Source: Bathymodiolus brooksi
Taxonomy: Eukaryota; Mollusca; Bivalvia; Mytilida; Modiolidae
Reading direction: 5' to 3'
Length of the DNA: 64,000 bases
Assembly: GCA_963680875.1 (NCBI GenBank)
Contig: OY804583.1
Location: forward strand, 34,771,331-34,835,330
Position numbers and translations under genes: made by a program. The notes beneath the pieces are model-generated. The model was given only the letters and a program-made list of their open reading frames with translations. It made no database searches and was not told the origin of the DNA. How positions within the stretch are numbered: position 1 is the first letter of the stretch; each line of letters opens with the position of its first letter. Shown here piece by piece: positions 3,800 to 50,805 of the stretch.

Positions 3800-6700
3800 T
3801 ACAAGTGAGTAAGTGATTGTTGTTTAACACCAAGTCATTAACTTGAGGCATTATCAGATACAACTGTCTCATACAAGTGAGTGAGTGATTGTTGTTTAAC
3901 ACCAAGTCTTTAACTTGAGGCATTATCAGATACAACTGTCTCATACTAGTGAGTGAGTGATTGTTGTTTAACACCAAGTCATTAACTTGAGGCATTATCA
4001 GATACAACTGTCTCATACAAGTGAGTGAGTGATTGTTGTTTAACACCAAGTCTTTAACTTGAGGTATTATCAGATACAACTGTCTCATACAAGTGAGTGA
4101 GTGATTGTTGTTTAACACCAAGTCATTAACTTGAGGCATTATCAGATACAACTGTCTGATACAAGTGAGTGAGTGATTGTTGTTTAACACCAAGTCTTTA
4201 ACTTGAGGCATTATCAGATACAACTGTCTCATACAAGTGAGTGAGTGATTGTTGTTTAACACCAAGTCATTAACTTGAGGTATTATCAGATACAACTGTC
4301 TCATACAAGTGAGTGAGTGATTGTTGTTTAACACCAAGTCTTTAACTTGAGGCATTATCAGATACAACTGTCTGATACAAGTGAGTGAGTGATTGTTGTT
4401 TAAGACCAAGTCATTAACTTAGGGCATTATCAGATACAACTTGCCTCATACAAGTGAGTGAGTGATTGTTGTTTAACACCAAGTCATTAACTTGAGGCAT
4501 TATCAGATACAACTGTTTCATACAAGTGAGTGAGTGATTGTTGTTTAACACCAAGTCATTAACTTGAGGCATTATCAGATACAACTGTCTCATACAAGTG
4601 AGTGAGTGATTGTTGTTTAACACCAAGTCTTTAACTTGAGGCATTATCAGATACAACTGTCTCATACAAGTGAGTGAGTGATTGTTGTTTAACACCAAGT
4701 CTTTAACTTGAGGCATTATCAGATACAACTGTCTGATACAAGTGAGTGAGTGATTGTTGTTTAACACCAAGTCATTAACTTAGGGCATTATCAGATACAA
4801 CTTGCCTCATACAAGTGAGTGAGTGATTGTTGTTTAACACCAAGTCATTAACTTGAGGCATTATCAGATACAACTGTCTCATACAAGTGAGTGAGTGATT
4901 GATGTTTAACACCAAGTCATTAACTTGAGGCATTATCAGATACAACTGTCTCATACAAGTGAGTAAGTGATTGTTGTTTAACACCAAGTCTTTAACTTGA
5001 GGCATTATCAGATACAACTGTCTCATACTAGTGAGTGAGTGATTGTTGTTTAACACCAAGTCATTAACTTGAGGCATTATCAGATACAACTGTCTCATAC
5101 TAGTGAGTGAGTGATTGTTGTTTAACACCAAGTCATTAACTTGAGGCATTATCAGATACAACTGTCTCATACAAGTGAGTGAGTGATTGTTGTTTAACAC
5201 CAAGTCATTAACTTGAGGCATTATCAGATACAACTGTCTCATACTAGTGAGTGAGTGATTGTTGTTTAACACCAAGTCATTAACTTGAGGCATTATCAGA
5301 TACAACTGTCTGATACAAGTGAGTGAGTGATTGTTGTTTAACACCAAGTCATTAACTTGAGGTATTATCAGATACAACTGTCTCATACAAGTGAGTAAGT
5401 GATTGTTGTTTAACACCAAGTCATTAACTTGAGGCATTATCAGATACAACTGTCTCATACAAGTGAGTGAGTGATTGTTGTTTAACACCAAGTCTTTAAC
5501 TTGAGGCATTATCAGATACAACTGTCTCATACTAGTGAGTGAGTGATTGTTGTTTAACACCAAGTCATTAACTTGAGGCATTATCAGATACAACTGTCTC
5601 ATACAAGTGAGTGAGTGATTGTTGTTTAACACCAAGTCTTTAACTTGAGGTATTATCAGATACAACTGTCTCATACAAGTGAGTGAGTGATTGTTGTTTA
5701 ACACCAAGTCATTAACTTGAGGCATTATCAGATACAACTGTCTCATACAAGTGAGTGAGTGATTGTTGTTTAACACCAAGTCTTTAACTTGAGGCATTAT
5801 CAGATACAACTGTCTCATACAAGTGAGTGAGTGATTGTTGTTTAACACCAAGTCATTAACTTGAGGCATTATCAGATACAACTGTCTCCTGCAAGTGAGT
5901 GAGTGATTGTTGTTTAACACCAAGTCTTTAACTTGAGGTATTATCAGATACAACTGTCTCATACAAGTGAGTGAGTGATTGTTGTTTAACACCAAGTCTT
6001 TAACTTGAGGCATTATCAGATACAACTGTCTGATACAAGTGAGTGAGTGATTGTTGTTTAAGACCAAGTCATTAACTTAGGGCATTATCAGATACAACTT
6101 GCCTCATACAAGTGAGTGAGTGATTGTTGTTTAACACCAAGTCATTAACTTGAGGCATTATCAGATACAACTGTTTCATACAAGTGAGTGAGGGATTGTT
6201 GTTTAACACCAAGTCATTAACTTGAGGCATTATCAGATACAACTGTCTCATACAAGTGAGTGAGTGATTGTTGTTTAACACCAAGTCATTAACTTGAGGC
6301 ATTATCAGATACAACTGTCTCATACAAGTGAGTGAGTGATTGTTGTTTAACACCAAGTCATTAACTTGAGGCATTATCAGATACAACTGTCTCATACAAG
6401 TGAGTGAGTGATTGTTGTTTAACACCAAGTCATTAACTTGAGGCATTATCAGATACAACTGTCTCATATTAGTGAGTGAGTGATTGTTGTTTAACACCAA
6501 GTCATTAACTTGAGGCATTATCAGATACAACTGTCTCATACAAGTGAGTGAGTGATTGTTGTTTAACACCAAGTCTTTAACTTGAGGTATTATCAGATAC
6601 AACTGTCTGATACAAGTGAGTGAGTGATTGTTGTTTAACACCAAGTCATTAACTTGAGGCATTATCAGATACAACTGTCTCATACAAGTGAGTGAGTGAT

Positions 6701-39281: not shown

Positions 39282-39408
39282 CTGCACAATTATAAGCCGT
39301 GTTAACATCTAGTACATCATAGAACATTAACCCATCAGCTATGTTGGCAAGAAATTCTAATCTCCAGTCCTTAAATCTCATGGTTTGTCCCCCGGTAGAT
39401 GAAAATGC
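39282..39408 (-). CDS. Astacin-like protease exon 9: end of the catalytic domain
   Basis: This 127-bp exon has an acceptor ending TTTTAAAAG and donor GTACGT, enters in phase 0 and carries one base over. It encodes AFSSTGGQTMRFKDWRLEFL, A-N-I-A-D-G-L-M-F-Y-D-V-L-D-V, then NTAYNCA. In astacins the segment after the Met-turn runs AFSxxGxxT...DxxxIN.xYxC; the match at both ends fixes the register. The final cysteine is the partner of the first catalytic-domain cysteine in exon 6. The stretch between TM and GLMFYD is shorter and less hydrophilic than usual and lacks an obvious GQxxxLS motif, so this subdomain is divergent. Confidence 0.85.
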
Positions 39409-40753: not shown

Positions 40754-40945
40754 CCGTAGACTATATTGAAGATCTGATGACCCATCATAGGCATGCTTAT
40801 CCGTTGTTGAATACTTTTTAAAGGTAGAATATCGGTTCTCCGCCATATTTTTGTACATTATTTCTATGTACTTGTCACGGTCTGTTCTACTTTGTTCATG
40901 GTGTGCACCCAAGGCGTGGAGCATTTCATGAACTGCTGTCGATAC
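40754..40945 (-). CDS. Astacin-like protease exon 8: zinc-binding active site
   Basis: This 192-bp exon is 64 codons, phase 0 at both ends, with an acceptor ending ATTAAAG and donor GTTAGT. It encodes VSTAVHEMLHALGAHHEQSR then TDRDKYIEIMYKNM. The motif HEMLHALGAHH supplies the three zinc-ligand histidines and the catalytic glutamate of HExxHxxGxxH, and the following E-Q-S-R-T-D-R-D is diagnostic of astacins. The exon ends H-A-Y-D-G-S-S-D-L-Q-Y-S-L-R, where astacins have the Met-turn SxMHY. Here it is S-D-L-Q-Y: the tyrosine that acts as a fifth zinc ligand is kept but Met is Leu and His is Gln. The usual aromatic before the third histidine (GFxHE/GFWHE) is Ala. Confidence 0.95.
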
Positions 40946-41242: not shown

Positions 41243-41914
41243 ATTCTAATGCAATACTGAACATAAAAATGTATTCTTGAATATCCCCGAGTCTAAAAAT
41301 CACACAAATTAAAATTCCGCGAAATATTGTTGACGACTTTGACATATAAACAACATGACGTCATATGAAGACTTCCAGTTTAAAATGTAAAGATCATACG
41401 TTATTTGGCTTCGTGTACGCTTCAACTTTGATAAAATTTAACTAAAATAAGTTTTCAAGGTAGGCATTTTATTATTTGTGTGTTGTAAATATGACATGTA
41501 TGATTTCACGTTTTCAAGATGTCGGATCCTTCCAGCTGAATCTCTAATTCTAAGAAAAAAGCTCATGCTATTTCAACAGTGGAATTGATACCGTGAAAAT
41601 TAGAGCATTGTCCAATCACAAACCAGGAATATTAAACAACTACATTTTAGAATGCCAAGCTGAACTAGTAAATTGAATATTAAAAGCAAGCGTGGATACA
41701 ATAGTTCGCTTGAAACAGTAAATTGCTGGACACAGTAATATGATGGAAACAGTCATTTGGTGAGCCCATTGCATTTTGGAAATTTGTCTTACTATTTCAA
41801 GTGTTAAATATGCCGTCCAAATATGTGATTTTTTAAATTTAGATCCCTTTTAGACCAATTTTCAAAATAAAATAGCCAAAACAATTTAATGGTCCACCAA
41901 TAGCCTATAAAGAT
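41243..41914. other. Intron sequence left of the 37-bp array
   Basis: No exon was recognised. At about 41,778-41,905 the sequence CCCATTGCATTTTGGAAATT and the following bases up to CCACCAATAGCC resemble 45,008-45,150 on the other side of the array in the same orientation. Confidence 0.45.
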
Positions 41915-44703
41915 GATAAGAGTGATAACCAACAGACATACATCTAGGTGTGGTAAGAGTGATGACTTACAGACATACATCTAGGTGTGGTAAGAGTGAT
42001 AACTTACAGACATACATCTAGGTGTGGTAAGAGTGATAACTTACAGACATACATCTAGGTGTGGTAAGAGTGATAACTTACAGACATACATCCTGGTGTG
42101 GTAAGAGTGATAACTCACAGACATACATCCTGGTGTGGTAAGAGTGATAACTCACAGACATACATCCTGGCGTGGTAAGAGTGAGAACATACAGACATAC
42201 ATCCAGGTGTGGTAAGAGTGAGAACTCACAGACATACATCCATGTGTGGTAAGAGTGAGAACTCACACACATACATCCTGGTGTGGTAAGAGTGATAACT
42301 CACAGACATACATCCTGGTGTGGTAAGAGTGATAACTCACAGACACACATCCAGGTGTGGTAAGAGTGATAACTCACAGACATACATCAAGGTGTGGTAA
42401 GAGTGATAACTCACAGACATACATCCTGGTGTGGTAAGAGTGAGAACTTACAGACATACATCCTGGTGTAGTAAGAGTGAGAACTTACAGACATACATCC
42501 TGGTGTGGTAAGAGTGATAACTCACAGACATACATCCTGGTGTGGTAAGAGTGATAACTTACAGAGATACATCCTGGTGTGGTAAGAGTGATAACTTACA
42601 GATATACATCAAGGTGTGGTAAGAGTGAGAACTCACAAACATACATCTTGGTGTAGTAAGAGTGAGAACTTACAGACATAAATCCTGGTGTGGTAAGAGT
42701 GAGAACTCACAGACATACATCCTGGTGTGGTAAGAGTGAGAAATCACAGACATACATCCTGGTTTGATAAGAGTGATAACTCACAGACATACATCCAGTT
42801 GTGGTAAGAGTGAAAACTCACAGACATACATCCAGATGTGGTAAGAGTGAGAACTTAAAGACATACATCCAGGTGTGATGAGAATAAGAACTTACAGACA
42901 TACATCCAGGCGTGGTCAGAATAAGAAATTACAGACATACATCCAGGTGTGGTAAGAGTGATAACTTACAGAGATACATCCTGGTGTGGTAAGAGTGATA
43001 ACTTACAGATATACATCAAGGTGTGGTAAGAGTGAGAACTCACAGACATACATCTTGGTGTAGTAAGAGTGAGAACTTACAGACATACATCCTGGTGTGG
43101 TAAGAGTGAGAACTCACAGACATACATCCTGGTGTGATAAGAGTGATAACTCACAGACATACATCCAGGTGTGGTAAGAGTGAAAACTCACAGACATACA
43201 TCCAGATGTGGTAAGAGTGAGAACTTAAAGACATACATCCAGGTGTGATGAGAATAAGAACATACAGACATACATTCAGGCGTGGTTAGAATAAGAACTT
43301 ACAGACATACATCCAGGTGTGGTTAGAATAAGAACTTACAGACATACATCCAGGTGTGATTAGAATAAGAACTTTCCGACATACATCCAGGTGTGGTAAG
43401 AGTGATAACTTACAGACATACATCCTGGTGTGGTTAGAATAAGAACTTACAGACATACATCCAGGTGTGGTTAGAATAAGAACTTACAGACATACATCCA
43501 GGTGTGATTAGAATATGAACTTACCGACATACATCCAGGTATGGTAAGAGTAAGAACTTACAGACATACATCCAGGGGTGGTTAGAATAAGAACTTACAG
43601 ACATACATCCAGGTGTGATTAGAATAAGAACTTACACACATACATCCAGATATGGTAAGAGTAAGAACTTACCGATATACATCCAGGTGTAATTAGAATA
43701 AGAACTTACAGACATACATCCAGGTGTGGTAAGAGTAAGAACTTACCGACATACATCCTGGTGTGGTTAGAATAAGAACTTACCGACATACATCCAGGTG
43801 TGATTAGAATAAGAACTTACCGACATACATCCAGGTATGGTAAGAGTAAGAACTTACCGACATGCATCCAGGTGTGGTTAGAATTAGAACTTACAGACAT
43901 ACATCCAGGTGTGATTAGAATAAGAACTTAGAGACACATACATCCAGGTATGGTAAGAGTAAGAACTTACCGACATACATCCAGGTGTGGTTAGAATAAT
44001 TACTTACAGACATACATCCAGGTGTGGTAAGAATAAGAACTTACAGACATACATCCAGGTGTGATTAGAATAAGAACTTACCGACATACATCCAGGTGTG
44101 ATTAGAATAAGAACTTACCGACATACATCCAGGTGTGATTAGTATAAGAACTTACAGACATACATCCAGGTGTGATTAGAATAAGAACTTACCGACATAC
44201 ATCCAGGTGTGGTAAGAGTGATAACTTATAGACATACATCCTGGTGTGGTAAGAGTAAGAACTCACAGACATACATCGTGGTGTGGTAAGAGTGAGAACT
44301 CACAGAAATACATCCAGGTGTGGTAAGAGTGATTACTTACCGACATACATCCAGGTGTGGTAAGAGTAAGAACTTACAGACATACATCCAGGTGTGGTAA
44401 GAGTAAGAACTTACAGACATACATCCAGGTGTGGTTAGAATAAGAACTTACAGACATACATCCAGGTGTGATTAGAATAAGAACTTACCGACATACATCC
44501 AGGTGTGGTAAGAGTGATAACTTACAGACATACATCCTGGTGTGGTAAGAGTAAGAACTCACAGACATACATCGTGTTGTGGTAAGAGTGAGAACTCACA
44601 GACATACATCCAGGTGTGGTAAGAGTGATAACTTACAGATATACATCCAGGTGTGGTAAGAGTAAGAACTTACCGACATACATCCAGGTGTGGTAAGAGT
44701 CAG
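41915..44703. repeat. 37-bp minisatellite, about 75 units, derived from an exon-intron junction
   Basis: On the minus strand each unit reads CTCTTACCACACCTGG, ATGTATGTC and (G/T)GTAAGTTATCA or close variants. The rightmost copy is not free repeat but the 3' end of astacin exon 7 (44,674-44,770): ACTCTTACCACACCTGGATG codes for T-L-T-T-P-G-C and is followed by the exon's donor GTAAGT. The unit therefore consists of about 26 nt of coding exon plus about 11 nt of intron including the donor. Two main subtypes alternate: GTAAGAGTGATAAC and TTAGAATAAGAAC on the plus strand. A block near 42,560-42,900 recurs near 42,970-43,260. Confidence 0.97.
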
Positions 44704-44770
44704 AGGTTGGTACTTGTAATTATATTTATACAGAAGGTGAGCAACATTTCCTACATAAGAACTGCAACCA
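44674..44770 (-). CDS. Astacin-like protease exon 7: central catalytic domain
   Basis: This 97-bp exon has acceptor TTTTTTTTCAG and donor GTAAGT, enters in phase 2 and ends in phase 0. It encodes SGCSSYVGNVAHLLYKYNYK then YQPLTLTTPGCMS. Astacins have GCxSxVGxxxxxQxxxLxxGC here; the two cysteines form the short disulfide of the family. The last 8 codons and the donor are the template of the 37-bp array, so this exon faces about 75 copies of its own 5' splice site downstream. Reading through the donor stays open for only about 20 further residues before a stop. Confidence 0.92.
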
Positions 44771-45507: not shown

Positions 45508-45649
45508 CTGGTGCTGACGATTTTCACGTAGGAGTCATGTCCAAGATTAGCCTCTGTATTTCTCACGTCATTTCGATCAACCCAGCGAACACACGTAAGA
45601 TCATCAAACTGCTTTATAGCTTGATAAATTATACCTGCCTCCTCGACAG
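45508..45649 (-). CDS. Astacin-like protease exon 6: N-terminal catalytic subdomain
   Basis: This 142-bp exon has acceptor ATTTACAG and donor GTACAT, entering in phase 1 and leaving in phase 2. It encodes, after the split T, VEEAGIIYQAIKQFDDLTCV then RWVDRNDVRNTEAN and LGHDSYVKIVST. The pattern IxxAixxfxxxTCirfvxR...dyvxi is that of the astacin N-terminal subdomain; the cysteine of T-C-V-R-W is the first of the four conserved ones. Frame and spacing fit exons 5 and 7 exactly. Confidence 0.93.
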
Positions 45650-50440: not shown

Positions 50441-50601
50441 CTGGTTTAATGGTAAGCTGGTTTAATGGTAAGCTGGTTTAATGGTAAAGCTGGTTTAATG
50501 GTAAGCTGGTTTAATGGTAAAGCTGGTTTAATGGTAAGCTGGTTTAATGGTAAAGCTGGTTTAATGGTAAGCTGGTTTAATGGTAAGCTGGTTTAATGGT
50601 A
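50441..50601 (+). repeat. 16/17-bp minisatellite made of Pol III A-box copies
   Basis: CTGGTTTAATGGTAAG or CTGGTTTAATGGTAAAG is repeated ten times, the tenth running into the SINE at 50,590. The core TGGTTTAATGG fits the A-box consensus TRGYNNARNGG at every position and corresponds to the A-box position in the SINE head (TGGTGTAATGG at 47,972). Confidence 0.9.
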
Positions 50602-50805
50602 ATCGTGTTCGCCTCACGTGAGATAGATCCTAGGTTGGAGCTACGGTACACTCAAACTAAAAACTATAAATATCGTATTTGCTGCTTCTTCGCTAAGGAC
50701 GCAGCATTAAGGGGTAAGAGAACAGACTGGTTGGTTCGGAATTAGAATAATGTGTTTAAGTGGAACGACATGTCTACCCCCGGGTCGTGTTGTTTCAATG
50801 ATCTC
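50590..50805 (+). repeat. SINE (family A) fragment downstream of the A-box array
   Basis: GTTTAATGGTAATCGTGTTC, GCCTCACGTGAGATAGATCC, ACTCAAACTAAAAACTATAA, TATTTGCTGCTTCTTCGCTA and GGTTGGTTCGGAATTAG follow the order of the full copy at 47,970. The B-box (TAGGTTGGAGCTA) is degenerate. The 3' end is missing after about 50,805. Confidence 0.75.

Follow-up and report, generated by a model that had tools for sequence, protein, structure and literature searches.

What becomes of a gene when the end of one of its exons, together with its 5' splice site, is repeated in tandem dozens of times in the following intron? This question is raised by an astacin gene in the DNA analysed here, a stretch of 64,000 nucleotides from Bathymodiolus brooksi that is referred to as the window. 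The explanation we favour, with a probability of roughly three in four, is that a minisatellite was seeded on an exon-intron junction of a gene whose catalytic-domain exons are intact, that the real donor is mainly used, and that the array is close to neutral.

The gene lies on the minus strand, and four exons of the catalytic domain could be placed.

45508..45649 (-), astacin exon A, 142 nt, with donor AG/GTACAT; it is placed by the open joined frame and by the match of the joined product to Pfam Astacin
44674..44770 (-), astacin exon B, the repeat-bearing exon, 97 nt, ending in PGCMS; 100% identity in two further copies of the gene (L009 and L010)
44700-44674 (-), 27 nt at the end of exon B that make up the exonic portion of the 37-bp repeat unit
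40754..40945 (-), astacin exon C, the zinc-site exon with HEMLHALGAHHEQSR, 192 nt
39283..39408 (-), astacin exon D, the end of the catalytic domain, 126 nt

When joined, exons A-D form one open frame, and the product matches the Pfam Astacin (M12A) family with 116.8 bits (cut-off 22.5, E=1.2e-33). It can be aligned with solved astacins (17 distinct sequences), including the segment encoded by the repeat, where LTLTTPGCMS of exon B pairs with LSINRGGCMY of the solved astacin 3vtg. The zinc-site motif of astacins, HExxHxxGxxHE, is intact in exon C (HEMLHALGAHHE). The Met-turn motif of the family is SxMHY; here it reads SDLQY, with leucine in place of the methionine, as also in the paralogues L017 and L024. 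Judged by its sequence, the protein is a member of the astacin (M12A) family and a putative peptidase. The repeat-bearing exon had been called exon 7 in the initial annotation, a number that could not be established: it is the second of the four exons placed, and the N-terminal exons were not found. When ORFs were compared with those of the sister loci, the best 30 pairs listed consisted of repeat-like peptides only. A search for N-terminal motifs gave no match in the window, nor in the five sister loci, and is therefore uninformative. It is thus the four catalytic-domain exons of the gene to which the intactness applies.

Comparison with the five sister loci gave pN of 0.31-0.33 and pS of 0.85-0.89 (five pairs with the window). 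As the comparison with that cluster is saturated at synonymous sites, we give pN and pS and no dN/dS. On these values, the astacin protein is historically constrained relative to the sister cluster. Within that cluster, pN is larger than pS in some near-identical pairs (L013 with L014 and with L015), in which there are very few differences.

The repeat next to exon B is reported by TRF as a 37-bp array of 75.3 copies at 41917-44704. Walking outward from exon B, from 44673 down to 41934, gives 2,740 nt, with a single 2-nt insertion before unit 20. The features of the array are as follows.

41934..44673 (-), intronic 37-bp array of 74 units, each opening with a donor or a mutated donor; the first is the authentic donor and the other 73 are decoys
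44668..44673 (-), the authentic 5' splice site, TCG/GTAAGT, the sole frame-keeping donor of the 74, with a predicted U1 duplex of -9.3 kcal/mol
41914..41933 (-), a distal partial unit of 20 nt, where ACTCTTATCA equals the exon's ACTCTTACCA at 9/10 positions; a candidate founder direct repeat

Each unit corresponds to the final 27 nt of exon B followed by the first 10 bases of the intron, and exon B is itself the terminal unit, in the window as well as in L009 and L010. The initial annotation had described the repeat in this way, as an exon end with its 5' splice site in which the true exon is the last unit, and both observations hold. The 27-nt end of exon B has one mismatch to the unit consensus, while the best of 20,000 shuffles of the exon has 7. 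Two other repeats are present in the window: a 72-bp satellite at 1-23488 (~327 copies, 96% match) and a 16-bp array, CTGGTTTAATGGTAAG, at 50441-50602 (~10 copies), whose unit contains the donor-like GGTAAG.

The near-identity of exon and array could also be read in the opposite direction, with an intronic repeat as the starting point and the exon end derived from it by capture. This order of events appears extremely unlikely to us, as the exon segment encoded by the repeat aligns with solved astacins, and the exon end is found without the array in all five sister genes examined. These astacin loci, L011-L015 on the same contig, have an equivalent exon end and donor, ...T/GTAAGTTTCTT, at the same place, and TRF detects no exon-derived 37-bp array in any of them. 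The exon-intron junction is therefore older than the array. Four of the five (L011, L012, L014 and L015) carry a different minisatellite, of 32 bp, 300-340 bp into the homologous intron.

Starting from this junction, we suggest that a founder event could have duplicated 37 bp in tandem between a pair of short direct repeats, exonic ACTCTTACCA and intronic ACTCTTATCA, of which the second now lies at the distal flank. The identification of the founder repeat involves some circularity, because truncation of the last copy would give the same appearance. The array would then have grown by slippage or unequal exchange, including blocks of several units. The two halves of the array differ in composition: G at -1 occurs in 13/37 proximal and 0/37 distal units, T at -1 is present in all 37 distal units, and CCA is found in 18/37 distal vs 6/37 proximal units. 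The exon ends of eight outgroup loci read CCA, and T stands at -1 in the five for which the donor was aligned. The exon end of the paralogue L024 is CCT, and present-day exon B has CCT together with G at -1. This pattern suggests that an older state of the exon may be kept in the array; the alternative would be recurrent mutation.

L009 and L010, two near-identical copies of the gene located on the same contig, allow the history of the array to be followed further. They contain 90 and 73 units vs 74 in the window, counts that compare paralogous copies. Exons B-D show no difference among the three copies (0/415 nt), which is not significant alone at a divergence of ~0.55%. Exon A of L009 and L010 differs from the window at 6/142 nt; all six changes are nonsynonymous and the frame is open in both copies. 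This pattern may reflect diversifying selection or conversion. The flanks of the array, exons included, differ between the window and L009 or L010 at 16-18 of ~2,820 upstream sites and 16-17 of 3,189 downstream sites, and between L009 and L010 at 2/2,823 and 1/3,190 sites (3 of 6,013). Within the array, 72 units could be aligned between the window and L010; they differ by 17 substitutions (0.0064 per site, similar to the flanks), and units have been gained and lost in addition. L009 has an exact tandem block of 18 units that is missing from L010. Thus, the exon unit is constant at one edge while the length and the content of the array change among the three copies.

In a whole-genome DNA search the full exon B was found at three loci (three candidate places were scored), and among the matches listed of the 236 obtained, all are within these three. 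A protein search gave two matches among 29 candidates. One of them, P0001, is an ORF on a public ENA contig of 1,780 bases, in which the same exon is followed by different unit variants. The join of exon and array is therefore seen outside the assembly, and its units vary; that this record is independent of the assembly we infer from its different units. Tandem arrays are hard to assemble, and the flanks of L009 and L010 differ at only 3/6,013 sites, so an assembly artefact has to be considered. However, the array is present at three loci, the one in the window is unlike the other two, and a separate public record contains the same join, which makes this the least probable of the explanations weighed here.

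How would the splicing machinery see these units? The dinucleotide GT is present in 68/73 decoys, GT with G at +5 in 66/73 and GTRAGT in 64/73. At -1, most decoys carry T where the real donor has G, the variant T/GTGAGT alone occurring in 21/73, and only 12/73 equal the real donor over -3..+6. The idea of a natural test of donor choice, from the initial annotation, stands, but not that the choice is among identical sites. All units were also scored as splice sites by predicted U1 pairing, a check suggested together with that idea. The mean over decoys is -5.74 kcal/mol vs -9.3 kcal/mol for the real donor, which is equalled by 12/73 decoys in the window, 11/89 in L009 and 11/72 in L010. The nearest such decoy in the window is unit 5, 185 nt downstream of the real donor. 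The lack of an equal decoy in units 1-4 of the window and 1-8 of L009 and L010 is, by a hand estimate, not statistically notable. A possible acceptor, CCAGG, is found within 20/74 units.

It had been claimed that most choices shift the frame or hit a stop; in fact all 73 alternatives lead to a premature stop, and the real donor alone keeps the frame. The same holds for L009 and L010, where the exons of the window were combined with the units of each copy and only the authentic donor leaves the frame open.

The mean minor fraction is 0.070 for the donor columns and 0.095 for the other columns (64 distinct units), and 4/17 of the differences between the window and L010 arrays fall inside +1..+6. 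Neither the column variation nor the window-L010 differences give a signal for removal or retention of the decoys. The donor columns show no particular conservation or degradation, which suggests that selection hardly sees the decoys. Close to the exon, a GT has been lost in both L009 and L010 (position +1 of unit 1 is G in the window and C in L010), which counts as one event.

These observations bear on whether the array affects splicing, i.e., whether downstream donors are used to an appreciable extent, giving frame-shifted transcripts and a lower output, so that the length of the array tunes expression. The GTRAGT of 64/73 decoys and the premature stops from 73/73 speak for such an effect, and downstream repeat donors are used in human IFI6 (PMC4526556). 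For this reason some leakage to the array donors is plausible. However, variation in the donor columns is similar to that elsewhere in the unit, with neither retention nor removal favoured, and exons B-D are identical in the three copies. We therefore regard an effect on output as unlikely.

A stronger version of this idea, put forward in the initial annotation, is that mis-splicing or titration of U1 shuts the gene down. The retention of GT with G at +5 in 66/73 decoys would agree with it, but the four-exon frame is open, the protein has been historically constrained relative to the five sister loci, exons B-D of the two other copies are the same and the decoys carry no signal of selection. 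U1 is very abundant, and its titration by one gene is therefore unlikely. Silencing is not supported and appears very unlikely.

Instead, we propose that the spliceosome would mainly take the donor adjacent to the exon, as predicted from three of its properties: it is the first of the series, it completes the normal 97-nt exon, and it pairs with U1 better than most of the copies. The array would then be removed with the intron and would therefore be close to neutral.

Is the astacin array an isolated accident? Minisatellites (period >=10, >=3 copies, score >=100) account for 13.4% of 118,812 bases from the loci of 12 astacin paralogues, and tandem repeats occupy 60% of the window. At such a density of minisatellites, occasional strikes on a junction are expected. 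Two further arrays were met while surveying and not via a designed scan, and no rate is claimed from them. In the astacin paralogue L024 (positions 4977-5684; G000:C5:76343500-76353400), the 3' splice site and the body of exon B are present in 8 copies at 90-92-bp spacing, with a GTAAGT donor in the last copy alone. In L031 (positions 648-1235; G000:C8:11566800-11569200), a trypsin-like exon fragment, CGGTIVSPTWIVTAAHC, is present in 5.7 copies with a period of 104 bp, with six donor-like ACAGTAAG sites and acceptor-like CTACAG sites between them. Among 95 p450 matches inspected by eye, there was no case of one portion of the domain recurring within 1 kb. Six p450-like matches at G000:C19:9514605-9534036 have a near-constant spacing of 3,749 bp and frames of 489 aa (five) and 488 aa (one), i.e., they form a tandem gene array.

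From these cases it can be speculated, with some doubt, that minisatellites seeded on exons or junctions are recurrent in this genome, at at least three loci: a donor in the window, an acceptor with exon in L024, and an exon with both signals in L031. They might supply ready-made series of exons, donors and acceptors, a nursery for new isoforms or introns that could be caught at different stages. In the astacin gene, the three natural copies provide 73, 89 and 72 decoy positions after the same real donor, with a defined spacing and a graded strength (T or G at -1, A or G at +3). With these copies, the effects of position, strength and exon length on the choice of a 5' splice site can be told apart.

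Arrays of this kind have precedents. The minisatellite of human IFI6 (6-16, G1P3), reportedly described by Turri in 1995 as containing multiple splice donors, has a 12-nt unit in ~26 repeats and keeps the frame. The 37-nt unit of the astacin array, in contrast, breaks the frame, and all 73 alternatives truncate the protein. The likeness lies in the arrangement: in both genes a minisatellite at the exon end supplies repeated 5' splice sites, and in IFI6 two of the downstream repeat units serve as donors (PMC4526556). In human FAM20C, too, a tandem repeat crosses a junction, and an effect on alternative splicing is indicated, in a disease context (PMC5941971).

The closest relatives are the mirages of amphioxus, which a 2010 paper on amphioxus globins describes as minisatellite-like tandem duplications of exon-intron boundaries, at either boundary and unstable in length, with GT/AG signals kept in many, but not all, copies (PMC3087553). 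The examples given there are BflGb6 with 6 or 3 units of 150-160 bp, BflGb9 with a 157-bp duplicate, and Adh3 with units of 10-72 bp, and RT-PCR suggests that regular splicing is not disturbed. On the features described there, the astacin unit likewise spans an exon-intron boundary (27 exon and 10 intron nt), the authentic gene section is at the edge of the cluster (exon B in three copies), splice signals are present in many but not all units (GT in 68/73, GTRAGT in 64/73), and the length is unstable, with 74, 90 and 73 units in paralogous copies and the 18-unit block in L009. The differences are that 73-90 copies are present, that the gene is an astacin, and that it is known here from genomic DNA, while splicing in amphioxus is known from RT-PCR. 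The copy number exceeds any that we found described in these texts, the copy number of Adh3 lying outside the comparison. By its sequence features, the astacin array is a long member of the known mirage class. It fits the idea that junction minisatellites feed the gain of introns and isoforms, and it probably extends such minisatellites beyond amphioxus and human.
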